Assembly (NCBI GenBank): GCA_022402565.1
Contig: JAKRSC010000008.1
Location: 124,001 to 188,000 of the forward strand
Reading direction: 5' to 3'
Length of the DNA stretch: 64,000 bases
From: Hydrotalea sp.
GTDB lineage: Bacteria; Bacteroidota; Bacteroidia; Chitinophagales; Chitinophagaceae
Shown one piece after another: positions 5,641-31,181 of the stretch. Numbering within the stretch: the first letter of the stretch is position 1; the number at the start of each line of letters is the position of its first letter. The position numbers and the translations under genes are program-made. Under the pieces are notes generated by a model. The model was not told where the DNA came from. It saw only the letters and a program-made list of their open reading frames with translations, and made no database searches.

Positions 5641-7238
5641 TTGCCATAGCTTTTTAGTAATGCTCTTAAATCTTCTATAGTGTTTGCTTCTTCTTTTGGT
5701 TTGTCTTTGCGCCATCTGTGTATTCTTGGAAAACGAACGGCTATTCCGCATTTATGTCTTTTGCTTACCGAAATCCCTTCAAATGCAATTTCGAAAACAA
5801 GTTCTGGTGGTACGGTTCTTACAGGACCAAATTTTTCAATAGCATGCTTTTTTACAAACTGATCTACTTCATTGAACTCTGCATCTGTTAGTCCACTATA
5901 TGCTTTTGCAAAGGGAATCCATTTCTCCCCATCTCTAACTGCAAATGTATAGTCTGTAAAAAGATTGCTCCTTCTACCATGTCCTTTCTGTGCATAAATT
6001 ATAACGGCATCAATCGTTAATGGATCTACTTTCCATTTCCACCAGTCACCTCTTTTTCTACCTGATAAATAAGGCGAATCTTTTCTTTTAATCATGAAAC
6101 CTTCTGCCAACATTTCCCTCGAATGTAATCGGAGTGATGCAAGTTGATTCCAGTCATCAAATTGAACAATCGGTGAAAGCTGAATGATAGAGGATGAAAT
6201 TTTTGATATAAACGATTCAAGTAAGATTTTTCTTTCTAAAAGAGGAGTGTTTCTCAAGTCTTTTCTTTCCGCTTCCAGTAAATCATAGGCAAAAAATCCA
6301 ACGGGCGCATCTTGCAGTAGTTTTTTTGAAACTTTTTTTCTTCCAAGTCTAGTTTGTAAAAGTGAAAATGGGAGGGGTTTTCCTGCTCTCATGCAAATAA
6401 TTTCTCCATCTATAACCGTCCCATCAGGCAGCTGCATAGCTAGTTCTTTTAACTCTGGAAACTGGTCTGTTACCAATTCCTCACCTCTGCTCCAAATATA
6501 GCATTGCAGGTTTCTAATTATGATTTGCCCTCTTATCCCATCCCATTTCCATTCTGCCAACCATTCACTTGGTGAGCCCAATTCTGTTGGCTTATGCTCG
6601 AGTGCGTAAGCAAGATAAAAAGGATAGGGTTTTGAATCATCTGATTCTATAGAGCTATTATCAAAAAAAGTAGTTAACTCGGTTGTTGCTGGCTCCCATT
6701 TGCCCGATAGTCGGTGTGTAAGTGTACTAATCTCAATTCCCGAAAATTTTGAAAGGCCTTTAATTACCATTTGTTCTGATATACCAATTCTAAATCCACC
6801 TGTAATGAGCTTATTGAAAATAAATTGGAAGGTTGGATGGGGAATGGACCAGTATTTTAATATCAATGTATGTTTTTCTTCATCAGGGCTTCCAGAGATA
6901 TTAATCATTTCTTGTATCAACTCAGTTAATGTTTGAGGCAATTCGGTCGTTTCAGAAGTATTAGTTTTATTCAGTAAAGCAATAGTCTCTGCTAAGTCGC
7001 CAACAGTATGGTAACATTCTTCAAAAAGCCATTCTTCAATTTTATTTTTCGAGCAGCACCATTGTTTTAAGAGGCTAGTTTTTACAATACGTTTTGGTCT
7101 TCTTCCACTAAATAAGGCAATCGTCCAAACAATATCTTTAGAAATTGCTTCATTACAGTATTTCACAATAGCATCTACTTTGTCGTTTGTGCTTGTACTT
7201 TGATCAAGTTGTTGAATAAGGTGAATGAACTGTTTCAT
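5637..7238 (-). CDS. ATP-dependent DNA ligase (ligase-associated DNA-damage-response type)
   Basis: A 533-residue ATP-dependent DNA ligase. An N-terminal DNA-binding domain spans about residues 1-200. The nucleotidyltransferase domain has the adenylated lysine in EWKWDGIRGQ (K at about 230), motif III near FFAYDLLEA, motif IV EGFMIKR and motif V WWKWKVDPLT. The C-terminal OB domain follows. It lacks the polymerase and phosphoesterase domains of LigD, and no ku gene is nearby. The ATG overlaps the stop of the MBL-fold exonuclease by four bases. This pair is the known 'ligase-associated DNA damage response' module, which in other bacteria also includes a DEXH helicase and a phosphoesterase; neither is here. 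Confidence 0.9.
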   Translation of the reverse strand: MKQFIHLIQQLDQSTSTNDKVDAIVKYCNEAISKDIVWTIALFSGRRPKRIVKTSLLKQWCCSKNKIEEWLFEECYHTVGDLAETIALLNKTNTSETTELPQTLTELIQEMINISGSPDEEKHTLILKYWSIPHPTFQFIFNKLITGGFRIGISEQMVIKGLSKFSGIEISTLTHRLSGKWEPATTELTTFFDNSSIESDDSKPYPFYLAYALEHKPTELGSPSEWLAEWKWDGIRGQIIIRNLQCYIWSRGEELVTDQFPELKELAMQLPDGTVIDGEIICMRAGKPLPFSLLQTRLGRKKVSKKLLQDAPVGFFAYDLLEAERKDLRNTPLLERKILLESFISKISSSIIQLSPIVQFDDWNQLASLRLHSREMLAEGFMIKRKDSPYLSGRKRGDWWKWKVDPLTIDAVIIYAQKGHGRRSNLFTDYTFAVRDGEKWIPFAKAYSGLTDAEFNEVDQFVKKHAIEKFGPVRTVPPELVFEIAFEGISVSKRHKCGIAVRFPRIHRWRKDKPKEEANTIEDLRALLKSYGN

Positions 7239-8248
7239 GAAGTCTCTATGTTTGTTTGTTCTTCTTCATCTTGACCAAATAAAGTTGATAATGTTTCAGC
7301 CTGGTATCCCCGTTCATTGAGATACTTGGTAAGTACATGTGTGAATCCATGAGTGGCTAAAATATGCTGAGCACCAGTTGCTTCAATTGCTGAAAGTAAT
7401 CCATTCCAATCGGCATGATCACTTAATACAAATCCTTTATCAACATTTCTTCTTCTTTGGTTACCCCTCACTTGCATCCATCCACTGCAAATAGCTCTCT
7501 GAGAAGGGCCTAATTTTTTGAGCCAATTAGTTTGATCAGCTGAAGGAGGCGCAATAACAACGCCTTTGGAAAAATCAATTGGTTTTAATCCATTATGTAT
7601 GCGTATTACGGGTTGAAGTGAATGTTGTTGCTGAATTAATATTTCTTGAGTATTTGCAATTGCTCCATGAGCGTAAATAGGAATATTCAAAGGAGCTAAG
7701 GCTTCAATAACTCTTTGTGCTTTTCCTAAGCTATAGGTGAATAATACTGGAGTCACCTGCTTTTCATGTGCTTCTTTTACCCAATGTCTAATGGAGGAAT
7801 ACACTTGCTCTTGTTCCTCCCATTGATAAATTGGTAGACCAAAAGTTGACTCTGTAATAAAATGATTGCAACTAATAGGTTCAAATGAACCGCTAATACC
7901 ATCATTTTTTGTTTTATAATCACCACTAACCACCCATGTATCATCTTTGTAACGAACTCTAATCTGAGAAGATCCAATGATATGTCCAGCAGGAAAAAAT
8001 GTAATTTCTATGCTATTGATAAAAATTGATTTACCCCATGCAATTCCTTGATAAGGATGGTTGCCTAAACGAAGTTGCAGAAGTGGAACAGTATGTTCAT
8101 GGCATAAATAGGATGTACAACCCCACCTTGCATGGTCGCTGTGGGCATGGGTAATTAATGCTTTATTAACAGGGCGCCAAGGATCAATGAAGAAGTCACC
8201 TAGCTCGCAATACAAACCATGACTAGTTAATTCCAATAATGGCTTCAT
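7235..8248 (-). CDS. Ligase-associated DNA-damage-response exonuclease (MBL fold)
   Basis: A 337-residue metallo-beta-lactamase-fold nuclease of the SNM1/Pso2-like group. Metal-binding residues are visible in THAHSDHARWG (HxHxDH, about residues 33-40), in FFPAGHIIGSSQ, in VVSGDYK and in the C-terminal FVLSDHADW. It is expected to process damaged or cross-linked DNA ends ahead of the ligase encoded by the next gene, with which it overlaps by ATGA. The DUF2256 gene ends 6 nt upstream, so the three genes 8403-5637 look like one transcript. The role in repair is inferred from the family; nothing in the sequence shows induction by damage. Confidence 0.9.
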   Translation of the reverse strand: MKPLLELTSHGLYCELGDFFIDPWRPVNKALITHAHSDHARWGCTSYLCHEHTVPLLQLRLGNHPYQGIAWGKSIFINSIEITFFPAGHIIGSSQIRVRYKDDTWVVSGDYKTKNDGISGSFEPISCNHFITESTFGLPIYQWEEQEQVYSSIRHWVKEAHEKQVTPVLFTYSLGKAQRVIEALAPLNIPIYAHGAIANTQEILIQQQHSLQPVIRIHNGLKPIDFSKGVVIAPPSADQTNWLKKLGPSQRAICSGWMQVRGNQRRRNVDKGFVLSDHADWNGLLSAIEATGAQHILATHGFTHVLTKYLNERGYQAETLSTLFGQDEEEQTNIETS

Positions 8249-22843: not shown

Positions 22844-23113
22844 TCATTCAATTTCAGTATATTGTATTTCTTGCTTGCTGCTAGTTAATTTAGATTCATT
22901 AGAAGGTGTGCATCCTTCTTCTAGACATCTTTTTGGCCTGAAAAATCCTGTTACTACAAGAATAGCACCTAGTATAATAGCTGGCCATGCGCCTTCAGCA
23001 CGAAAAGCGTACCCAAAATAAATAGCAACAGCACCTAAAGACCACCTGAGCAAGCTGCTGAACCAGATGACTATTTGAGTATCGCGGGTATCTGTAGATT
23101 GAAACATGTTCAT
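22844..23113 (-). CDS. Small DUF2892/YgaP-like membrane protein
   Basis: An 89-residue protein with two close hydrophobic segments (about residues 18-60), a short FRPKRCLEEGCTPSN loop with two cysteines, and a polar tail. This is like the transmembrane part of YgaP rhodaneses. It is the last gene of the rhodanese-thioredoxin operon, directly after the exported rhodanese with no gap, suggesting membrane-linked sulfur handling. Function unproven. Confidence 0.7.
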   Translation of the reverse strand: MNMFQSTDTRDTQIVIWFSSLLRWSLGAVAIYFGYAFRAEGAWPAIILGAILVVTGFFRPKRCLEEGCTPSNESKLTSSKQEIQYTEIE

Positions 23114-23512
23114 TTATTTTTGAAGTGGGCCATCCCAACTTATAATACCCCATTTTAAGTGAAAGACATGCGGAATTCCTTTTTGCTGAAACAGTTTGAC
23201 AGCTTGTCCTGTCCTATTACCAGATCTGCAATACAACAAATAAGTTTTTGCAGTATCTAGCTGGCTTATTTTCTGAACGAAATCATTTTGATAAAAGTCA
23301 ATATTAATTGCATTGGATAAATGTCCACTTTGAAATTCTTCCGCAGTTCTTATATCCAGTATAACCACGTTGGCTTCTTTCATTTTTTTCTGAAATGCTC
23401 CATTCGTTAAGTGCACAGTATTTTGTTGCGATTGAGCAGAACAACTCCAAATGTGAAAGCTGAAAACAATTAAAAATGTCCAGCGTGCAAGTATAACAAA
23501 TTGCTTAAGCAT
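23114..23512 (-). CDS. Exported rhodanese-domain lipoprotein
   Basis: A single rhodanese domain of 132 residues. The preferred start is ATG 23512, which begins MLKQFVILARWTFLIVF, a signal segment leading to HIWSCSAQ, a possible lipobox cysteine. The frame is open for 15 bases upstream. The active-site loop is intact: LLYCRSGNRTGQA with the catalytic Cys near residue 95. It would transfer sulfane sulfur outside the cytoplasm, unlike the other two rhodaneses of this operon, which have no signal. The start overlaps the OsmC stop by 8 bp. Confidence 0.82.
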   Translation of the reverse strand: MLKQFVILARWTFLIVFSFHIWSCSAQSQQNTVHLTNGAFQKKMKEANVVILDIRTAEEFQSGHLSNAINIDFYQNDFVQKISQLDTAKTYLLYCRSGNRTGQAVKLFQQKGIPHVFHLKWGIISWDGPLQK

Positions 23513-23957
23513 GACTCGGTGTTGCAATTAAAACCGTTGGTTCAAAAATGATTTTTGATTTCACAGAATTAGAGATTAAGCATGCCGCTTCAGATTTATG
23601 TAAAACACGCATAGCTTTTTCTTGGTCATTAGCATCTTCTATCACTAAGCTGGGCTGAAGTAAAATTTCACTAATCATATATTTACTTTCAACAATCTCT
23701 AATTTACCAACTGCTTTAGAATTGAAACTTTGAAAAGATAGTTTAAAATTTTCAGCGATTGCTAAAAACGTAGTCATTAGGCAACTGTTAACTGCTGCGA
23801 CTAATAAATGCTCTGGCGACCAAATTCCAGGCATTCCTTTAGGAAATTCAGGAGGAGTAGCCACATCTAAATTATGTTCTAGAACAGGAGAGCTAAGGTT
23901 GCCTTTTCTGTCGGTAGTCCATTGTAAATTAACTTCGTAATGATGAATATTAGACAT
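23505..23957 (-). CDS. OsmC-family protein
   Basis: A 150-residue OsmC/Ohr-fold protein. The two redox cysteines of the family are present in AVNSCLMTTFLAIAENF (about residue 57) and EAACLISNSVK (about residue 124). The family reduces organic peroxides or persulfides using thiols or lipoyl proteins. In a sulfur island a persulfide-related function is plausible but is only inferred from context. Located between a thioredoxin gene and an exported rhodanese gene on one transcript. Confidence 0.85.
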   Translation of the reverse strand: MSNIHHYEVNLQWTTDRKGNLSSPVLEHNLDVATPPEFPKGMPGIWSPEHLLVAAVNSCLMTTFLAIAENFKLSFQSFNSKAVGKLEIVESKYMISEILLQPSLVIEDANDQEKAMRVLHKSEAACLISNSVKSKIIFEPTVLIATPSHA

Positions 23958-23973
23958 GTAGGTTGTTTTAAGG

Positions 23974-24282
23974 TCATGAATAGGTTTGAATAACCTGTTT
24001 AATTTGTGCAGCAGGAACTACACCAGATTTTCTCCAAATAGCTTGTCCTTTTTTGAAAAGAATTAGAGTCGGAACCCCTTGTATTTGATAAGCAGAAGCT
24101 ACTTGAGGATTCACATCAACATCTACTTTAATGATTTTTACTTGATCTTGTAATTCCTTTTTAACATCTTGCAATATTGGTGACATCATTTTGCACGGTC
24201 CGCACCAAGTCGCAAAAAAGTCCACCAAAACTGGTTGCTCGCTATGAATAAGTTCTTGAAAACTAGGATTTCCGTTTTGCAT
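23974..24282 (-). CDS. Thioredoxin
   Basis: A 102-residue thioredoxin with the active-site FATWCGPCK (cysteines 27 and 30) and the cis-proline loop QGVPTLILF near residue 75. It has no signal peptide, so it is cytoplasmic. Its gene overlaps the preceding small membrane protein gene by 20 bp. In this operon it could reduce persulfides released by the rhodaneses and carriers. It is probably not the only thioredoxin of the cell. Confidence 0.92.
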   Translation of the reverse strand: MQNGNPSFQELIHSEQPVLVDFFATWCGPCKMMSPILQDVKKELQDQVKIIKVDVDVNPQVASAYQIQGVPTLILFKKGQAIWRKSGVVPAAQIKQVIQTYS

Positions 24283-24487
24283 GAGCTCTTTCTTTTGTGT
24301 TAATTTCTAGTGTGCCTACTACAACTGCTCCAGTTACTGCAAAGTAAATGGTGCTATTTACTGGATCTGAAGTAAACATGCATGTACCAGTTGAACAACC
24401 AACATAATACCAATATGCATAGCCACTTACTGCACCTATTGATGCTCCAATTAAGTACTTTTTATTTTTTATTATCCACTTCTTCAT
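24263..24487 (-). CDS. Small DUF6132-like membrane protein
   Basis: A 74-residue protein starting MKKWIIKNKKYLIG at ATG 24487. It has two hydrophobic segments separated by YVGCSTGTCMFTSDPV, a GCxTGTC pair of cysteines characteristic of DUF6132. The frame is open 39 bases further upstream but that part overlaps the previous gene and looks unrelated. The function is unknown; the conserved cysteine pair at the membrane surface would suit sulfur or thiol chemistry. It overlaps both its neighbours, so translation of the operon is tightly coupled. Confidence 0.72.
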   Translation of the reverse strand: MKKWIIKNKKYLIGASIGAVSGYAYWYYVGCSTGTCMFTSDPVNSTIYFAVTGAVVVGTLEINTKERAHAKRKS

Positions 24488-24722
24488 ATGTAATAGGTTT
24501 ATTTTCTTGAATGGTTCTTTTGTCATTATATCTTGGTGTACATCCGTTCACTCCACAACATCCAATATTTGCTAGTGCCATTCCGGCAAATAAAAGTCCA
24601 GCCATTCCTAGTACCCATTCTCTCATTCCAATGGCTTGAATAATGATTACAATACCCAATATTAAACGGAGTATTCTAACAAAATCCCAACCCATTACGT
24701 ACCATTTAATCCTATTGAGCAT
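24462..24722 (-). CDS. Small DUF2892/YgaP-like membrane protein with cysteine cluster
   Basis: An 86-residue protein from ATG 24722 (MLNRIKWYVMGWDF). There are two hydrophobic segments (about residues 16-54), then ANIGCCGVNGCTPRYN with three cysteines, then a polar tail. It is paralogous in layout to 22844-23113 at the end of this operon. Such proteins resemble the membrane half of YgaP, which is a rhodanese fused to two membrane segments. Here the rhodanese is a separate gene 10 bp upstream, so the two could work as a split YgaP. Inferred from order only. Confidence 0.7.
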   Translation of the reverse strand: MLNRIKWYVMGWDFVRILRLILGIVIIIQAIGMREWVLGMAGLLFAGMALANIGCCGVNGCTPRYNDKRTIQENKPITYEEVDNKK

Positions 24723-24732
24723 GTGCTTTATT

Positions 24733-25050
24733 TTAAGATTGAATTTGTTGTTGTAAAACATTCCATGGTCCACCATTTACAGTTTCAACTCCACCAGACA
24801 GTAAAATTGATTTTGCAACTCCACTTCTATTTCCACTTCTACAAACTGTGATGATAGGTTTATTCCATTTTTTTATTTCTTGCAATTTACTCTTTACTTG
24901 TTCAACAGGAATATTTTTTGACCCTTTAATATGTCCCGATTGAAATTCTCTGGGTGTTCTCACATCTAAAATGATAGCACCTTCTTGAATCATTGCATTG
25001 TAATTAGGTGGTGGGGCTGAACTGAAAAGCTTTTTCAAAAAATTGAGCAT
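24733..25050 (-). CDS. Rhodanese-domain protein (sulfurtransferase)
   Basis: A 105-residue single-domain rhodanese. DVRTPREFQSGHIKGSKNIP is at residues 29-48, and the active loop is TVCRSGNRSG with the catalytic Cys70. The N-terminus (MLNFLKKLFSSAPPP) is amphipathic rather than a signal peptide. Lying 10 bp after the first rhodanese gene and ahead of the YgaP-like membrane gene, it is part of the sulfane-sulfur operon. Confidence 0.9.
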   Translation of the reverse strand: MLNFLKKLFSSAPPPNYNAMIQEGAIILDVRTPREFQSGHIKGSKNIPVEQVKSKLQEIKKWNKPIITVCRSGNRSGVAKSILLSGGVETVNGGPWNVLQQQIQS

Positions 25051-25060
25051 AGGGTACGTA

Positions 25061-25342
25061 TTAATTCATGTAAAATTTAACATCTTCAATTCCACCTGCA
25101 TTGTATACATCTGAAAAGCCCGATTGCTTGAGCATTGATGCAGCCATTCCACTTCTGTTTCCACTTCTGCAATACAAAATGTAAGGTGCTTGTAATTTTC
25201 TCATTTCTTCAATTCTGTGTGGTACTTCATCCAATGGAATATTAATTGCTCCTTGTATGTGCTCCATTTCAAACTCCATTGTGCTTCGCACATCAATTAA
25301 AGTTCCCGAATTGTTTAAGATCATTTCTTTAAGTGTTTCCAT
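25061..25342 (-). CDS. Rhodanese-domain protein (sulfurtransferase), first gene of the operon
   Basis: A 93-residue single-domain rhodanese from ATG 25342. DVRSTMEFEMEHIQG is followed by the catalytic Cys58 in YILYCRSGNRSGMAAS. A GTG at 25366 is in frame, but that base is also the last base of a TAACTTTG promoter box, so the later ATG is preferred. It is the first gene of an eight-gene operon running to 22844. A Crp/Fnr-like palindrome sits 22 bp ahead of the promoter box. Confidence 0.88.
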   Translation of the reverse strand: METLKEMILNNSGTLIDVRSTMEFEMEHIQGAINIPLDEVPHRIEEMRKLQAPYILYCRSGNRSGMAASMLKQSGFSDVYNAGGIEDVKFYMN

Positions 25343-25365
25343 AATTGCTTGTTTTTTGGATGACA

Positions 25366-25409
25366 CAAAGTTAAAATGGCCATTTTCTATGAACAGTGAC
25401 TCAAATCAC
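25366..25409 (-). promoter_or_regulatory. Predicted promoter with Crp/Fnr-like site for the rhodanese operon
   Basis: On the minus strand GTGATTTGAGTCAC (25409-25396) is a dyad with perfect GTGA/TCAC half sites. It is followed after 22 bp by TAACTTTG (25373-25366), matching the Bacteroidota -7 motif TAnnTTTG. If transcription starts about 5 nt after the box, the palindrome is centred near -41.5, the classical position of an activator that contacts RNA polymerase directly. There is no TTTG at the usual -33 position, as expected for an activator-dependent promoter. The regulator gene is not in the window. Confidence 0.6.
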
Positions 25410-25417
25410 TTATACAT

Positions 25418-26194
25418 CTAAAGCAAATCCCAGCTTAAGCGAATGATTAGAACCGACATAACAAAAAGAAAAACATAACGAATAAATTGATTGCCTCTTA
25501 ACATGGCTGCCCTACTTCCTATAAAGCCACCCAACATATTTGCAGCCATCATTGGAATAGCCAACTTAAACAAGACAGCGCCTGATAATAAAAATCCTAT
25601 AAGCGATGCCGCATCGGCCATAGCATTGATTACTTTACTTTGAGCAGACGATTCCAAAAATCCCATCCCAAGGATACTTACAAAAGAAAACACCAACAAG
25701 GTTCCTGTTCCTGGACCAATAAATCCATTGTAAAATCCCATGGTTGCACCAATCAAACTGCTGAATAAAATGAGTTTGTTTCCTTGGTATTTCAATGCAT
25801 GTTTATTGCCTAAATCTTTTTTTATAAATGAGTAAATGGTGAGTGCTATTAAAATAACTAACAACATTGGCTTGAAAGTAGCAGAATCAATACTTCTCAT
25901 TGCAAAAGTTCCTCCGTATGCTGCTAGAGCAGTGAAAATACCCGTAATACCTATAATTTTCCAAGGCATTTTCATTTTTCTGCCATATTGAAAAGCAGCA
26001 ACTGTTGTTCCAGATAAAGATGCAAAGCGATTGCTTGCAATGACTTGAACATGACTTAATTCGGGGAACAGAATAAACAGTAAAGGCACTTGTACCAATC
26101 CACCACCGCCGACCACTGCATCGATAAAGCCGGCAAACAAAGCACCAATAGTTGCAGCTACAATTAACCAAACTGAAAGCTCATGTACATCCAT
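25418..26194 (-). CDS. TSUP-family (TauE/SafE-like) sulfur-anion exporter
   Basis: A 258-residue membrane protein with about seven or eight segments. The two repeated family motifs are visible: AGFIDAVVGGGGLVQVPLLF near residue 20 and MGFYNGFIGPGTGTLLVF near residue 150. The family exports sulfite, sulfoacetate, thiosulfate or related anions, though substrates vary. Placement between an SQR-type operon and a rhodanese operon supports a sulfur oxyanion. The start codon is 122 bp from the divergent SQR-like gene. Confidence 0.86.
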   Translation of the reverse strand: MDVHELSVWLIVAATIGALFAGFIDAVVGGGGLVQVPLLFILFPELSHVQVIASNRFASLSGTTVAAFQYGRKMKMPWKIIGITGIFTALAAYGGTFAMRSIDSATFKPMLLVILIALTIYSFIKKDLGNKHALKYQGNKLILFSSLIGATMGFYNGFIGPGTGTLLVFSFVSILGMGFLESSAQSKVINAMADAASLIGFLLSGAVLFKLAIPMMAANMLGGFIGSRAAMLRGNQFIRYVFLFVMSVLIIRLSWDLL

Positions 26195-26232
26195 AGGGCA
26201 AGCTAATAAACAATATTCAATTAGTCCTTAAA

Positions 26233-26246
26233 CTGATATAAATCAT
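26233..26246. promoter_or_regulatory. Crp/Fnr-like palindrome in the divergent TSUP/SQR spacer
   Basis: CTGATATAAATCAT has a perfect TGAT-N4-ATCA dyad, the core of the Fnr consensus. Its centre is 22 bp (about two helical turns) upstream of the second site at 26255-26268 and about 45 bp from the TSUP start codon. It could serve the TSUP promoter, act as a tandem site for the SQR operon, or both. The binding protein and its signal are unknown. Confidence 0.5.
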
Positions 26247-26254
26247 ATTCGAAA

Positions 26255-26298
26255 GTAACAAAAATCACTCAGCAGGCTTTTCATCTAAAATAGCTTTG
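26255..26298 (+). promoter_or_regulatory. Predicted promoter with Crp/Fnr-like site for the SQR operon
   Basis: GTAACAAAAATCAC (26255-26268) is followed after exactly 22 bp by TAGCTTTG (26291-26298), a match to TAnnTTTG. Site length, spacer and box match the rhodanese-operon promoter at 25366-25409. The left half site departs from the dyad by one base (TAAC for TGAC). With a start about 5 nt after the box, the mRNA leader would be about 14 nt. Confidence 0.55.
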
Positions 26299-26316
26299 AA
26301 CTCTTAAAACAACCAA

Positions 26317-27558
26317 ATGAAACGTCTTGTAATTTTAGGCGCTGGAACAGGTGGAACTATGATGGCAAACCACCTGCGTGACAAGCTGCCGCAATCGAAC
26401 TGGGAAATCAATATCATTGATGAAAGAACAGAACACCACTACCAACCAGGATATCTATTTCTCCCTTTTGATATTTACATTCCTGAAGATATTACTAAGC
26501 CCGTTGCAGATTTTATACCCAATGGAGTTCGCTGGGTGAATGATGCTATAGAGCTTATTGATCCCAAAGAACAACTTATTCATTTGGGATCCGGCGACAG
26601 ACTGCATTATGATATTTTGATTGTTGCTACAGGATGTAGGATAGCTCCTGAAGAAGTAGAAGGTATGAAGGGTGCAGAATGGCAAAAATCAGTTTTTGAT
26701 TTTTACACTTTTGAAGGCGCTTTAGCACTTAGAAATCATTTACGTAATTGGAAAGGAGGAAGACTACTTGTACATATTACAGAAATGCCTATTAAATGCC
26801 CAGTAGCTCCCTTAGAATTTGCATTTCTTGCCGATCATTATTTTAAAGAGAAAGGCATGAGAGATCAGGTTGAAATTGTTTATGTAACACCTTTAAGTGG
26901 AGCATTTACTAAGCCAACAGCTGCTGCTACACTAGGACATTTACTTGAGTCGAAAGACATTAAAATTGAATCTGATTTTGCTATTGCTGAAGTGGACAAT
27001 GAGAGAAAAGTGATTGTAGATTATGGTGGAAGGGAGTTGTCATTCGACTTGTTGGTCACTGTTCCAACTAATAAAGGAAGTGATGTAATTGAGAAGTCGG
27101 GTTTGGGTGATGACTTGAATTATATACCAACAAATAAAGCTACCCTTCAATCAAAAGCGTACAGCAATATATTTGTTATTGGCGATGCTTCTGATGTGCC
27201 CACTTCAAAAGCTGGATCTGTTGCGCACTTTGAAGCTGATATCTTAACTGAAAATATTATTCGGTTTATTAACAGCGAACCTTTACAAGAAGAGTTTGAC
27301 GGACATGCCAATTGTTTTGTTGAAACAGGCGGTGGTAAAGCTTTATTAATAGATTTTAACTACACCCATGAACCTGTTGAAGGGACCTTTCCTTTTCCTG
27401 GAGTTGGACCTTTAAGACTTTTAAAAGAAAATAGAATGAATCATATGGGTAAGATGGCATTTAGGTGGATTTATTGGAATATGCTCTTGAAAGGAACGCC
27501 CATTCCTTTCGTATCAACAAAGATGCAAGAAGCAGGTAAAAATTTTGTTCAAGCATAA
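26317..27558 (+). CDS. Sulfide:quinone oxidoreductase-like FAD flavoprotein
   Basis: A 413-residue pyridine-nucleotide-disulfide-fold flavoprotein. The FAD loop is LGAGTGGTMMANHL (residues 7-20), the second nucleotide motif ATGCRIAP is at 105-112, and the C-terminal FAD motif VIGDASDVPTSKAG is at 287-300. Three cysteines are present: C107, C161 (in MPIKCPVAPLE) and C333. C161 and C333 fall where the redox pair of sulfide:quinone oxidoreductases normally lies. The enzyme would oxidise sulfide at the membrane, delivering electrons to quinone and producing a polysulfide or persulfide. It heads an operon with TusE-like and DsrE2-like genes. A related flavoprotein with another sulfur substrate cannot be excluded. 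Confidence 0.82.
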   Translation: MKRLVILGAGTGGTMMANHLRDKLPQSNWEINIIDERTEHHYQPGYLFLPFDIYIPEDITKPVADFIPNGVRWVNDAIELIDPKEQLIHLGSGDRLHYDILIVATGCRIAPEEVEGMKGAEWQKSVFDFYTFEGALALRNHLRNWKGGRLLVHITEMPIKCPVAPLEFAFLADHYFKEKGMRDQVEIVYVTPLSGAFTKPTAAATLGHLLESKDIKIESDFAIAEVDNERKVIVDYGGRELSFDLLVTVPTNKGSDVIEKSGLGDDLNYIPTNKATLQSKAYSNIFVIGDASDVPTSKAGSVAHFEADILTENIIRFINSEPLQEEFDGHANCFVETGGGKALLIDFNYTHEPVEGTFPFPGVGPLRLLKENRMNHMGKMAFRWIYWNMLLKGTPIPFVSTKMQEAGKNFVQA

Positions 27559-27569
27559 AATATAAAATC

Positions 27570-27878
27570 ATGGAAAAAATAATTGCAGGAAAACAAATTG
27601 ATGTAACCGAAGAGGGATTTATGACAGATTTTGGTCAGTGGGATAAAACTGTTGGAGAAGCTTTGGCGCAGGAATCAAGTATTCAATTAACACCACGACA
27701 TTGGGAAGTGATTGCATACTTGCAAGATCAGTTTAAGCAAGAAGTTCCTTTAAGTATTCGAAAAATTGGTAAAAGTGGCGTATTAGATATTAAAGAGTTC
27801 TATGCGTTGTTTCCGAATGCACCTCTGAAGACAGCCACCAAAATTGCTGGTATTCCTAAACCAGTTAGTTGTATTTAA
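27570..27878 (+). CDS. DsrC/TusE-family sulfur carrier, single-cysteine (TusE-type)
   Basis: A 102-residue protein of the DsrC/TusE fold: DVTEEGFMTDFGQWD at 11-25, TPRHWEVIAYLQDQF at 41-55, then the C-terminal arm ending PKPVSCI. The penultimate-position cysteine (C101, CysA) is present, while the position of the second DsrC cysteine, eleven residues earlier, is T90. That makes it TusE-like, able to carry a persulfide on one thiol but not to form the intramolecular trisulfide of true DsrC. No dsrAB, tusBCD or mnmA is nearby, so a role in sulfide oxidation or sulfur relay is more likely than tRNA thiolation. It is 11 bp after the SQR-like gene. Confidence 0.88.
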   Translation: MEKIIAGKQIDVTEEGFMTDFGQWDKTVGEALAQESSIQLTPRHWEVIAYLQDQFKQEVPLSIRKIGKSGVLDIKEFYALFPNAPLKTATKIAGIPKPVSCI

Positions 27879-27895
27879 ACTTTAAAATATTGTTT

Positions 27896-28384
27896 ATGGA
27901 ACAAAATAATTATCAGGGTGAAATTAGAAAGATGATGATAATCCTGTCAAAAGCTACGCTCGATAATGTGTATGCAGCATTTGTATTGGCAAATGGCGCA
28001 AGAATGGAGGGAATAGAAGCTGAAATGTTTTTTACATTCTTTGGATTAGAAGCTGTTCATAAAAAGAAACTAGAACATCTACACATTGCCACAGTTGGTA
28101 ATCCTGCTATGCATATGCCAACTTTACTTGGCGGATTGCCAGGAATGGAGGCGCTTGCAACCAGTATGATGAAAAAAGAAATGGAAAGATTAGATATGCC
28201 CGATGTGGCTGAATTTCTGGAAATTCTAAAAGCATCTGGTGTAAAACTTTGGGCTTGTAAACTAGCAATGGATATGTTCCATTATCAGCGAGAAGATTTA
28301 ATAGAAGATTTAGATGGGGTGTTGACAGTCGGAGATTTTTATAAGCAGGGATCAGGCTTGGGAACACATATCTTATTTATATAA
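27896..28384 (+). CDS. DsrE/DsrF/DrsH-like (DsrE2-type) protein
   Basis: A 162-residue protein from ATG 27896 (MEQNNYQGEIRKMMIILSK). The DsrE-like fold is seen from IILSKATLDNVYAAFVLANG through EAEMFFTFFGLEAV and the C-terminal LTVGDFY. The single cysteine C121 in GVKLWACKLAMDMF is at the conserved persulfide-carrying position of the DsrE2 group. These proteins pass sulfane sulfur between rhodaneses, TusA and other carriers. An open 27-base extension upstream overlaps the previous gene's end and is not conserved-looking. Last gene of the SQR operon; a hairpin terminator follows 19 bp after the stop. Confidence 0.84.
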   Translation: MEQNNYQGEIRKMMIILSKATLDNVYAAFVLANGARMEGIEAEMFFTFFGLEAVHKKKLEHLHIATVGNPAMHMPTLLGGLPGMEALATSMMKKEMERLDMPDVAEFLEILKASGVKLWACKLAMDMFHYQREDLIEDLDGVLTVGDFYKQGSGLGTHILFI

Positions 28385-28456: not shown

Positions 28457-29671
28457 ATGAAAAAAGTTATATCATGCTTAATCTGTGTAGTTTATATACA
28501 AACAATTTTTGCACAAATCACTGGAAGAATAATAGATGCATATAATCAATATCCAGTTAATGGAGCTAGTGTTTTTTTAAATAAGACAACAAAGGGGACA
28601 GTCACTAATCGAGATGGAAATTTTCAGTTATCACTTCCAGAAGAGGGACGTTTCCATTTAGTGGTAAGTGCTCCTGGTTATGAGATTTATACAGCTACCA
28701 TTCAATCAAATAAGCTGCCTTCAAAGTTGGATATAAATTTAAGGCCTAAAACAAACGAACCGGTGGAGGTTTCTTCAGAGTCGTATGAAAAAAATGGTTG
28801 GGTAAAATGGGGTAGAACTTTTAGAGAAGCATTTTTAGGATCAGTAGAAGAAGCAAAGCGATGTAGAATAGTTAATCCAGAAGTTTTAAACTTTAGATTC
28901 AATAATAAATCTCGAATACTAAAGGTTACTACTTCAGCTCCTCTTAAAATTCAAAATCGAGCGTTAGGTTATAATGTTATATTTCACTTAGAGGAGTTTA
29001 TTCTTGATTTTTCAGTAGACTATGTACTGTATATTGGGTATCCATTTTTCGAAGAGATAAAATCCGATCCTTCTAACAGATCTGATACGTGGACCCAAAA
29101 TAGGGCATATGCATACGACGGATCTGTGATGCACTTTATGCGAGCATTATATCGAAACCAACTTGAGGAAGAGGGATTTGAAATAAGAAAAGTTACTATG
29201 ATTCCAAATAGTAATAAGGAAGTTAAAAAGGCAACTGCTCAAGGATTCTTAATTAAAAATGATTTTGTTACTCTACAGCCTTCTTTTGCTTTTTATTCAA
29301 CTCCATTTTTGTTAGAGCCTGATTCTCTTTATATAGCTAGTAGTTCTTTATTCAACTTAAATAGTATTGCATTTTCAGTTGATTCTACAACACGTGGTTT
29401 ATATTTTGATGATTACATTGAAGTTAATTATACAAAAAGGGTCGAGCCGATAGTTTATTGGCAAACAATAGGACTGAACTTCAATAGTAGTATAAATCAT
29501 CCAGATGCTGAGAAAACTCTATTATCTAAAATTCGTATTAAAGGGGACAAACCTATACATGTATTTAGTAATGGAATATTCAATGATCAAAGAGATATTG
29601 TCTATTCAGGCTTCTGGTCTAATTATGAAGTAATTTCAAGAATGCTTCCTTATGATTATAAGCGTAAATAA
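28457..29671 (+). CDS. Exported protein with carboxypeptidase-like regulatory domain, paralogue 1
   Basis: A 404-residue protein with a signal peptide (MKKVISCLICVVYIQTIFAQ) and an N-terminal carboxypeptidase-regulatory (beta-sandwich) domain (residues about 21-95: ITGRIIDAYNQYPVNGASVFLN and onward). A 300-residue C-terminal part of unknown fold follows. It lacks a TonB plug and barrel. The next gene is a tandem paralogue with the same architecture and strings of identical residues (for example YEKNGW, RALGYN/H, YDGSV-HFMRALYRNQL, RMLPYDYKRK). Function unknown; probably periplasmic or attached to the outer membrane. Confidence 0.8.
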   Translation: MKKVISCLICVVYIQTIFAQITGRIIDAYNQYPVNGASVFLNKTTKGTVTNRDGNFQLSLPEEGRFHLVVSAPGYEIYTATIQSNKLPSKLDINLRPKTNEPVEVSSESYEKNGWVKWGRTFREAFLGSVEEAKRCRIVNPEVLNFRFNNKSRILKVTTSAPLKIQNRALGYNVIFHLEEFILDFSVDYVLYIGYPFFEEIKSDPSNRSDTWTQNRAYAYDGSVMHFMRALYRNQLEEEGFEIRKVTMIPNSNKEVKKATAQGFLIKNDFVTLQPSFAFYSTPFLLEPDSLYIASSSLFNLNSIAFSVDSTTRGLYFDDYIEVNYTKRVEPIVYWQTIGLNFNSSINHPDAEKTLLSKIRIKGDKPIHVFSNGIFNDQRDIVYSGFWSNYEVISRMLPYDYKRK

Positions 29672-29972: not shown

Positions 29973-31181
29973 ATGAAGAAGGCCTCGTTTTTTTTCATCT
30001 TTATTTTATTGATTCAAAACATCTTTGCTCAAATTACTGGGAGGGTAGTAGATGCTAGTAATCAACAGCCCATTCTTGGTGCCAGTGTTTTCTTTAGCAA
30101 TACTTCTCGGGGCACAGTCACACAACAAGATGGAACTTTTCAGTTATTACTGCCAGGAAATGGCCGATTTGAATTAGTAATTAGTTATATAGGCTATGAA
30201 ACCTATACAACCACTATTCTTTCAAATCAAATTCCCTCCAAACTAGAGATCAAGTTGAAGCCTAAAGCAACTGAATTGGATGAAGTAATTGTTGAACCTT
30301 ATGAAAAAAATGGTTGGGAGAAATGGGGGAGGAGCTTCACTGAACTTTTTTTGGGTACTACAGAAGAATCTAAATTATGTAGGCTTTTGAATCCAGAAGT
30401 ACTCAGATTTAGATTTAGTAAAAAAACACAAACCTTAAGAGTCAGTGCTAACGCTCCACTCTTGATTGAAAACCGGGCGCTGGGTTATCATATAAAATAT
30501 CAATTGGAAGCATTCTCTTATGATTTTTCAAAGCGTTATTTGTTATTTGTGGGCTATCCTTTTTTTGAAGAGATGGAAGCTAAGCGAAACAGACAGATAG
30601 AAAGTTGGAAAAGTAATAGGGCATATGTGTATGATGGATCTGTCACTCATTTTATGAGAGCCTTGTATCGAAATCAGCTTATTGAGGAAGGCTTTGAAAT
30701 AAGGAGTTTAGTCAAGATAGTTAATCAAAATAAAGCCCAACAGAAAGCCGCTTTAAGAGAGTCAATGCTTGAATCTAATCAAATTGTTGTTCAGGCTACT
30801 CCCAGCGCTTACAGTCAATCAATATATAGTGGATCTCCCATGTCTGAGCCCGATTCTTTCTCAGTTGCCAGTTCTACATTGTTACCGGCAGATAGTGTTG
30901 CATTTGCAGTAGATTCAACTGTTTGTGGTTTATATTTCAAAAACTATATACAAGTAATTTATATAAAGCAACCTGCACCAAAATTATACCAACAACAGCA
31001 GGGGAATAATACTGGAAATGATAGCCAAACTTCTGAAATACGTATTACAGGTGGTCGTACAATTCTTATTTTAAGTAATGGAAGTTACTTTGAACCAACT
31101 GAATTGGTGTACCAAGGTTTCTGGGCATGGTCTGAAAAAATTTCTAGGATGCTTCCCTATGACTATAAGCGTAAGAAATAA
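29973..31181 (+). CDS. Exported protein with carboxypeptidase-like regulatory domain, paralogue 2
   Basis: A 402-residue protein, a tandem copy of 28457-29671, with a signal peptide (MKKASFFFIFILLIQNIFAQ), a carboxypeptidase-regulatory domain starting ITGRVVDASNQQPILGASVF, and the same C-terminal region of unknown fold. The regulatory domain is closer to the consensus (YIGYETYTTTI, ELDEVIVEPYEKNGW) than that of paralogue 1, which has lost the VIV segment. The copies differ widely across the middle, so the duplication is not recent. Function unknown. Confidence 0.8.
   Translation: MKKASFFFIFILLIQNIFAQITGRVVDASNQQPILGASVFFSNTSRGTVTQQDGTFQLLLPGNGRFELVISYIGYETYTTTILSNQIPSKLEIKLKPKATELDEVIVEPYEKNGWEKWGRSFTELFLGTTEESKLCRLLNPEVLRFRFSKKTQTLRVSANAPLLIENRALGYHIKYQLEAFSYDFSKRYLLFVGYPFFEEMEAKRNRQIESWKSNRAYVYDGSVTHFMRALYRNQLIEEGFEIRSLVKIVNQNKAQQKAALRESMLESNQIVVQATPSAYSQSIYSGSPMSEPDSFSVASSTLLPADSVAFAVDSTVCGLYFKNYIQVIYIKQPAPKLYQQQQGNNTGNDSQTSEIRITGGRTILILSNGSYFEPTELVYQGFWAWSEKISRMLPYDYKRKK

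Follow-up and report, generated by a model that had tools for sequence, protein, structure and literature searches.

The 64,000-nucleotide stretch of a Hydrotalea sp. genome analysed here, called the window, carries a sulfur gene island at positions 22844-28384. The core of the island is a plus-strand triad of genes for a sulfide:quinone oxidoreductase (SQR), a TusE-like carrier and a DsrE2-like protein. All three are present in 73 of the 78 loci that we compared, in the same order and on one strand in 73 of 73, so the arrangement is more than chance. The triad is probably a membrane sulfide-oxidation module with protein acceptors of its own, from which sulfur would move on to rhodaneses and to a fusion of persulfide dioxygenase and rhodanese (PDO-rhodanese), ending as sulfite or thiosulfate.

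Of the 12 open reading frames (ORFs) in the island, nine occupy the minus strand at 22844-26194 and three the plus strand at 26317-28384; the two sets diverge from a 122-base gap. This is the layout given in a preliminary description of the window, which had called it a sulfane-sulfur island, and family scans bear out the families named there (SQR, TusE/DsrC, DsrE2-like, TauE/SafE, three rhodaneses, thioredoxin and OsmC). Genes were called as greedy ORFs, with no gene finder. The window lies on contig C33 of a genome of 2.98 Mb in 35 contigs. The nine minus-strand genes form an accessory set specific to the lineage, and the triad genes are as follows.

26317..27558, plus strand: predicted type III sulfide:quinone oxidoreductase, 413 aa (NF049943), redox cysteines C161 and C333
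27570..27878, plus strand: TusE-like single-cysteine sulfur carrier of the DsrC family (TIGR03342, PF04358), penultimate C101
27896..28384 (ATG start at 27896), plus strand: DsrE2-like sulfurtransferase, 162 aa (PF13686), C121

The flavoprotein, described before as SQR-like, scores 642.7 bits against the type III SQR family NF049943 (cut-off 525). Aligned with the solved SQOR 8dhk, its C161 and C333 fall on two cysteines, presumably the redox pair of that enzyme. Both C161 and C333 are kept in 76 of 76 aligned SQR rows when rows below 250 bits or 360 aa (L078, L080 and L081) are left out. Judged from its sequence, the protein is a type III SQR whose redox cysteines are intact. According to the excerpt available, NF049943 has a selenoprotein subtype with the selenocysteine (Sec) motif HxxU (PMC13188914). 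The window SQR is of the same family and matches this motif as H330-x-x-C333, but it has cysteine for selenocysteine, and a selenoprotein was rejected because Cys occupies the Sec site.

The TusE-like protein scores 80.4 bits against TIGR03342 (TusE/DsrC/DsvC, cut-off 53.5) and 94 bits against PF04358. Of 73 rows (those below 60 bits or 80 aa, L070, being left out), 72 retain C101, and in none do the final 20 residues contain a second cysteine. The CysB site, 11 residues before CysA, is T90 in the window protein. A true two-cysteine (dissimilatory) DsrC was rejected, as the second cysteine is missing. The exceptional row (L100, genome G239) has Tyr for the penultimate Cys, by natural loss of the carrier cysteine or by sequence error. 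The DsrE2-like protein scores 118.2 bits against DrsE_2 (PF13686, cut-off 25), with C121 kept in 74 of 74 aligned rows (the filter of 100 bits and 110 aa excluded no locus with a hit). Its structure model (pLDDT 89.6, built from 30 sequences) finds the DsrE-family proteins 2qs7, 3pnx and 3mc3 as best matches in the PDB, and DsrEFH subunits rank lower. Thus C101, C121 and the loop cysteines of the rhodaneses listed below agree with the earlier statement that the carriers keep their active cysteines.

The 78 loci comprise 38 named loci and 40 from Bacteroidota genomes with G numbers; the latter genomes may overlap named GTDB loci, so the 78 are not independent, and many are metagenome-assembled genomes (MAGs). 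The nearest SQRs among the named loci are from Bacteroidetes and Ferruginibacter MAGs, at 73-75% identity. Among the five loci without the full triad, two (L056 and L073) reach the contig edge just after SQR and three (L119-L121) have SQRs of at most 48% identity. SQR identity alone is no predictor of the triad, as G530 (48%) has it and G063 (48%) does not. The gap is shorter than 50 bases between SQR and TusE in 59 of the 73 loci and between TusE and DsrE2 in 61. Nine loci have a DUF1641-like gene between SQR and TusE (by clustering; two of the nine were scanned). Comparing gene order around SQR homologues had been proposed in the preliminary description, and the unrelated neighbours that it allowed for were not seen for the triad. 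Distances of the three proteins co-vary over 69 loci (Mantel r 0.79-0.87, against a maximum of 0.18 in 999 permutations), as kinship alone would also make them do; the Mantel test and the Fisher tests below take no account of relatedness.

Two other genes were noticed around the triad by clustering. In five DUF1641 triads (L093, L097, L107, L108 and L116; the L093 copy was scanned), SQR is closely preceded by a gene for a MerR-type regulator containing several cysteines. In nine of the 78 loci (L046, L049, L051, L053, L057, L088, L090, L101 and L118; the L046 copy was scanned), an outer membrane gene of the FadL/OmpP1 type is found no more than 4 kb from SQR, on either side.

The triad extends beyond Bacteroidota. 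Sampling around a Gemmatimonadota, an Actinomycetota and a Planctomycetota locus (phyla as in the records of L064, L074 and L075) turned up SQRs with 48% identity or more in 11 of 130, 7 of 129 and 2 of 129 genomes, respectively. TusE and DsrE2 adjoin SQR in all 20 of these close matches (11/11, 7/7 and 2/2), of which 17 loci were newly fetched and three are L074, L075 and L064. A carrier pair collinear over four phyla names likely acceptors of type III SQR sulfur, and the question of which protein takes sulfur from type III SQR becomes testable with three small proteins. Type III was the commonest in a marine-sediment survey, with 1,814 of 2,593 SQR sequences in the excerpt at hand (PMC12345210).

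Twelve further Actinomycetota genomes with an SQR match fall outside the close-match set. Five of them (L201-L205, from G623, G549, G589, G612 and G564) encode SQR relatives, 42-44% identical, in which a TGA codon stands in frame at the C333 position (HATU), which is consistent with selenocysteine. The 9-15 kb retrieved around these SQRs contained no DsrE2 hit; in L205 a divergent two-cysteine DsrC adjoins the SQR relative. From the other seven, two loci were fetched, together with a second copy from one TGA genome, and weak DsrE2-like hits (38-69 bits) lie near SQR.

In a genome-wide survey of 395 Bacteroidota genomes, an SQR threshold of at least 517 bits gives 38 triad genomes. A PF04358 protein is present in all 38 and adjoins SQR in each, with a second copy unlinked to SQR in G005. 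PF04358 proteins occur in 66 other genomes (62 of family f18, three of f33 and one below cut-off), and 291 of the 395 have no match. The f18 proteins of the DsrC family end with two cysteines in all ten readable cases (of 30 loci). Outside f18 and four other genomes, each DsrC-family gene found in Bacteroidota adjoins a sulfide-oxidation gene. In four f18 genomes chosen for a shared contig (L207-L210), a two-cysteine DsrC and an SQR relative of 47% identity are 1.6-8.8 kb apart; in f18 genomes such as G040 and G075, the SQR relative and DsrC are far apart, and TusA and DsrC are about 2 kb apart. In G018 and G073 of family f21 (L121 and L215), TusA stands directly upstream of a 37-39% SQR, as another carrier in the neighbouring slot.

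The preliminary description had also noted no sHdr or Dsr partners in the island and proposed a genome search for TusA and sHdr genes. A search of the host genome gave no TusA match and found CCG (HdrB-type) proteins on contigs C30, C17 and C18, although no sHdr set was recognised among ORFs of at least 100 aa around the C30 and C17 genes. TusA is over cut-off in one of the 38 triad genomes versus 86 of the 357 others, a strongly phylogenetic contrast, as most of the 86 are f18. The triad genome G372 gave no CCG match.

No persulfide dioxygenase had been reported for the island, and this holds for the island and the whole 64-kb window by a PF00753 search. The sole metallo-beta-lactamase (MBL)-fold match within the window (7235-8248, minus strand) was rejected as a PDO, being a ligase-associated exonuclease (TIGR04122, 438.1 bits, cut-off 325). 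As a property of the organism, however, the absence is rejected. Among eleven MBL-fold matches in the host genome are three MBL-rhodanese fusions of 467, 475 and 472 aa, whose best solved relatives are 3tp9 and 3r2u, the latter of which we take to be S. aureus CstB. Domain content and solved relatives thus predict CstB-like PDO-rhodaneses; their scores against the NCBIfam bifunctional sulfur transferase/dioxygenase are 50-67 bits, all under the cut-off of 625. The incomplete relay that had been proposed is not supported, as three PDO-rhodaneses are encoded and one lies on the same contig beyond the window.

C33:84040-85395: predicted PDO-rhodanese, separated by 65 kb from SQR and by about 39 kb from the window

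The other seven non-fused MBL-fold proteins have as best NCBIfam names GloB-like, beta-CASP-like, lactonase-like (two), metal-dependent hydrolase, MBL hydrolase and RNase Z. The GloB-like protein (L003) has ETHE1 among its weaker solved relatives and might conceivably be a small fourth PDO. Upstream of another PDO-rhodanese, on C30 (L226:4897-6750), lies directly a gene for a 114-aa YtxJ-like protein (bacilliredoxin-type, by eye), hinting at bacillithiol persulfide as substrate.

The PDO-rhodanese of C33 belongs to a second sulfur locus at 83-93 kb of the contig. Its order is TSUP, PDO-rhodanese, HMA-like, Dps-like and Usp-like (these three named by eye), a YeeE/YedE-type pair, a diheme cytochrome of SoxA/TsdA type (49.2 bits, cut-off 27), a SoxB-like protein (221 bits, under the cut-off of 550), a DsrE-family protein that probably carries a signal peptide, and an outer membrane protein (OMP)-like gene. 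This DsrE, the genome's second, was rejected as part of the triad, as it is located here.

Homologues of genes from the two loci stand together in relatives. In G292 (L083), eleven genes run on one strand as TSUP-PDO-rhodanese-OMP-YeeE-YeeE-cytochrome-SoxB-like-SQR-TusE-DsrE2. Seven of them (TSUP, PDO, OMP, both YeeE, cytochrome and SoxB-like) match the second locus at 34-60% identity, and the other four (rhodanese, SQR, TusE and DsrE2) match the window island at 53-78%. Three relatives have a PDO-rhodanese at most 8 kb from the triad: besides L083, it is upstream of the triad in Lutibacter L066, with a YeeE pair and Usp directly downstream, and it accompanies a rhodanese in L088 (G134). In Ferruginibacter L047, homologues of the window accessory genes run into Usp, YeeE-pair and cytochrome genes. 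From these arrangements in G292, L066, L088 and L047, the window island and the second locus seem to be pieces of a single sulfur-oxidation gene set, contiguous in G292. The YeeE-YeeE genes of L083 resemble the YedE1E2 pair, which imports zero-valent sulfur according to an excerpt (PMC10812762).

No publication describing SQR-TusE-DsrE2 was found among the open-access matches listed, and the core arrangement is apparently undescribed in print within that search, in line with its earlier nomination as a candidate uncharacterised system. The nearest operon found in print, where TusA fills the carrier slot, is the type III SQR-TusA-DsrE2 operon of Methylacidiphilum fumariolicum SolV (MFUM_v2_0219-21), reported in the part of the paper available as about 1.7-fold up with H2S (PMC10205796). 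In both operons a type III SQR is followed by a small sulfur carrier and DsrE2, but the carrier is a TusA homologue there and a DsrC-fold TusE with a penultimate cysteine here, and the two SQRs are set side by side by family only. Cable bacteria have type III SQR together with TusA and a DsrEFH-like complex, as far as the excerpts go (PMC13047784, PMC13293266). The TusBCDE and DsrEFH-DsrC relays share with the island a pair of DsrE-family and DsrC-family proteins with conserved cysteines, but they use a three-subunit DsrE complex, whereas here there is one DsrE2-like protein and a single-cysteine carrier. The sulfur source here also appears to be SQR, not IscS-TusA as for TusBCDE. Heterotrophs such as Cupriavidus, and Staphylococcus with its Cst system, have an SQR-PDO-rhodanese pathway. 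SQR, CstB-like PDO-rhodaneses, rhodaneses and TSUP exporters are likewise all encoded in the host genome, but its SQR is packaged with DsrE2/TusE carriers and its PDO genes lie outside the window. For Cupriavidus the pathway is covered in an excerpt of PMC13047784.

Enzyme activities, relay direction, sink and product we infer as follows, from the observed gene content, conserved order, conserved cysteines, PDO-type genes and joined cluster in a relative. SQR (FAD, C161/C333) would oxidize H2S and pass electrons to the quinone pool, as its family membership and intact cysteines suggest. DsrE2 (C121) and TusE (C101) would take the sulfane sulfur as persulfide, in place of free thiols. Sulfur passes from DsrEFH to DsrC and from TusBCD to TusE, and by analogy it would pass here from DsrE2 to TusE. 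It would then reach rhodaneses and the CstB-like PDO-rhodaneses, whose genes lie in other parts of the genome; the products, sulfite and thiosulfate, would be exported by TSUP proteins. Thioredoxin and OsmC could reset cysteines or clear excess persulfide.

A bolder form of this scheme is possible but doubtful. SQR-TusE-DsrE2 may be a self-contained ‘protein-acceptor’ sulfide oxidase of bacteria that, like Bacteroidota, rely little on glutathione, in which a DsrC-fold carrier replaces TusA and small thiols in accepting sulfur from SQR, sulfane sulfur is never free and the sinks are interchangeable. In some genomes the sink would be PDO-rhodanese. In others it would differ: the triad genome G296 gave neither a PDO-rhodanese at E ≤ 1e-60 nor a TusA match, and its one CCG protein is not enough for sHdr.

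Several observations weigh against the sulfite and thiosulfate relay. The scores of both carriers stay under the cut-offs of the equivalogs (68.2 bits for TusE, PRK11508, cut-off 191; 107.1 bits for DsrE2, NF047629, cut-off 210). The C33 PDO is 34% identical to that of the G292 cluster, and the nearest copy (72%) is the one on C30. PDO-rhodanese (E ≤ 1e-60) is found in 23 of the 38 triad genomes versus 186 of the 357 others (Fisher p 0.39), and in 0 of 9 DUF1641 triads versus 23 of 29 other triads (p 3e-5, uncorrected for relatedness), a split that depends on the threshold, as some positives barely pass it (G089 at 1.7e-61 and G187 at 3.9e-61). The query was the fused protein, so short PDOs can be missed and absence is provisional. 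PDO as an obligate triad partner was rejected, given no association over the 395 genomes. As it is absent from 15 of the 38 triad genomes, PDO-rhodanese may not be an obligate outlet, and the triad may come in two versions, one with an oxygen-dependent PDO and one without. In G126 (L082:3179-7428), genes for MnmE (402.8 bits) and ThrRS share the strand of the triad and are 0.5-5 kb away from it. In addition, the M. fumariolicum product is elemental sulfur, not sulfite, in the part of the paper available (PMC10205796).

This last point would suit a relay that ends in zero-valent sulfur or polysulfide. The three triad proteins would then detoxify sulfide, with S0 being deposited or exported, and the PDO proteins would act in a separate pathway. 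We consider this unlikely. The cells with the closest characterised operon do make S0 (PMC10205796, excerpt), PDO-rhodanese is missing at this threshold from the 15 triad genomes, G296 has few sinks of any kind searched for, and a FadL-type gene stands near the triad in nine loci. A role of FadL-type proteins as a channel for hydrophobic sulfur is speculation, however, and PDO-rhodanese genes are present in the host genome and close to the triad in L083, L066 and L088.

It is quite improbable that the triad is a biosynthetic feed, in which SQR-derived persulfide would go through DsrE2 and TusE to MnmA for tRNA 2-thiouridine, as with TusE in E. coli. The 291 Bacteroidota genomes without a DsrC-family match argue against it, since such genomes should still thiolate tRNA. 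The C-terminus is of the single-cysteine TusE type, and as TusA is unmatched in the host and over cut-off in only one triad genome, the IscS-TusA route is absent, both of which would fit such a feed. So would the MnmE and ThrRS genes of L082, but this is one chance-noticed case, and in the other loci read for this (L046, L047, L066, L083 and L088) sulfur genes were recognised beside the triad. Very improbable is a loose assortment of stress genes that share no pathway. While it could explain why few loci have part of the nine-gene minus-strand set, it is already disfavoured by the collinearity counts, with the triad collinear in four phyla and accessory genes beside it in Ferruginibacter and G126.

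The minus-strand accessory genes, in order away from the gap, are as follows.

25418..26194, minus strand: TSUP (TauE/SafE) exporter of sulfite/thiosulfate type, predicted (PF01925 138.5 bits, cut-off 32.6)
25061..25366, minus strand: single-domain rhodanese, CRSGNR loop C66, GTG start (PF00581 66 bits)
24733..25050, minus strand: single-domain rhodanese, CRSGNR loop C70 (PF00581 55.1 bits)
24462..24776, minus strand: small membrane protein, C73/C74/C79 (no Pfam family)
24263..24526, minus strand: DUF6132-like small membrane protein, C44/C49 (PF19628 22.6 bits, just below cut-off 23.2)
23974..24282, minus strand: thioredoxin, CGPC, C27/C30 (TIGR01068 123.1 bits, cut-off 96.8)
23505..23957, minus strand: OsmC/Ohr-family protein (PF02566 52.8 bits)
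23114..23527, minus strand: exported or lipoprotein-like rhodanese, 137 aa, CRSGNR loop C100 (PF00581 68.4 bits)
22844..23113, minus strand: small YgaP-TM-like membrane protein, 89 aa, C63/C68 (PF11127 22 bits, below cut-off 25.3)

The preliminary description had placed the active cysteines of two rhodaneses at C58 and C70. C70 agrees, and C58 is numbered C66 here, the former number fitting a later ATG start. The third, 137-aa protein is a rhodanese as described; its N-terminal hydrophobic stretch and a possible lipobox at C29 were judged by eye only. All three small membrane proteins have the cysteine pairs counted before (C63/C68, C44/C49 and C73/C74/C79). That they stand in for part of YgaP is weakly suggested by the near-threshold score of the 89-aa protein, and the other two gave no match to the YgaP TM family (PF11127). 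Ferruginibacter L046 has a separate full YgaP-TM family protein near the triad, at 74.4 bits.

The minus-strand set recurs partially, with three to six genes each, only in L046, L047 and L082. These three loci all have homologues of the C73/C74/C79 protein, beside the same genes, and of the DUF6132-like protein and thioredoxin. An OsmC homologue of 67% identity lies directly upstream of SQR in L046 and L047, and lone rhodanese or OsmC relatives occur near the triad in L083, L086, L088 and L105.

A promoter and terminator scan gave a result no better than shuffles. Downstream of the triad, the window has two tandem genes for similar proteins (28457-29671 and 29973-31181) with an N-terminal carboxypeptidase-regulatory-like domain.

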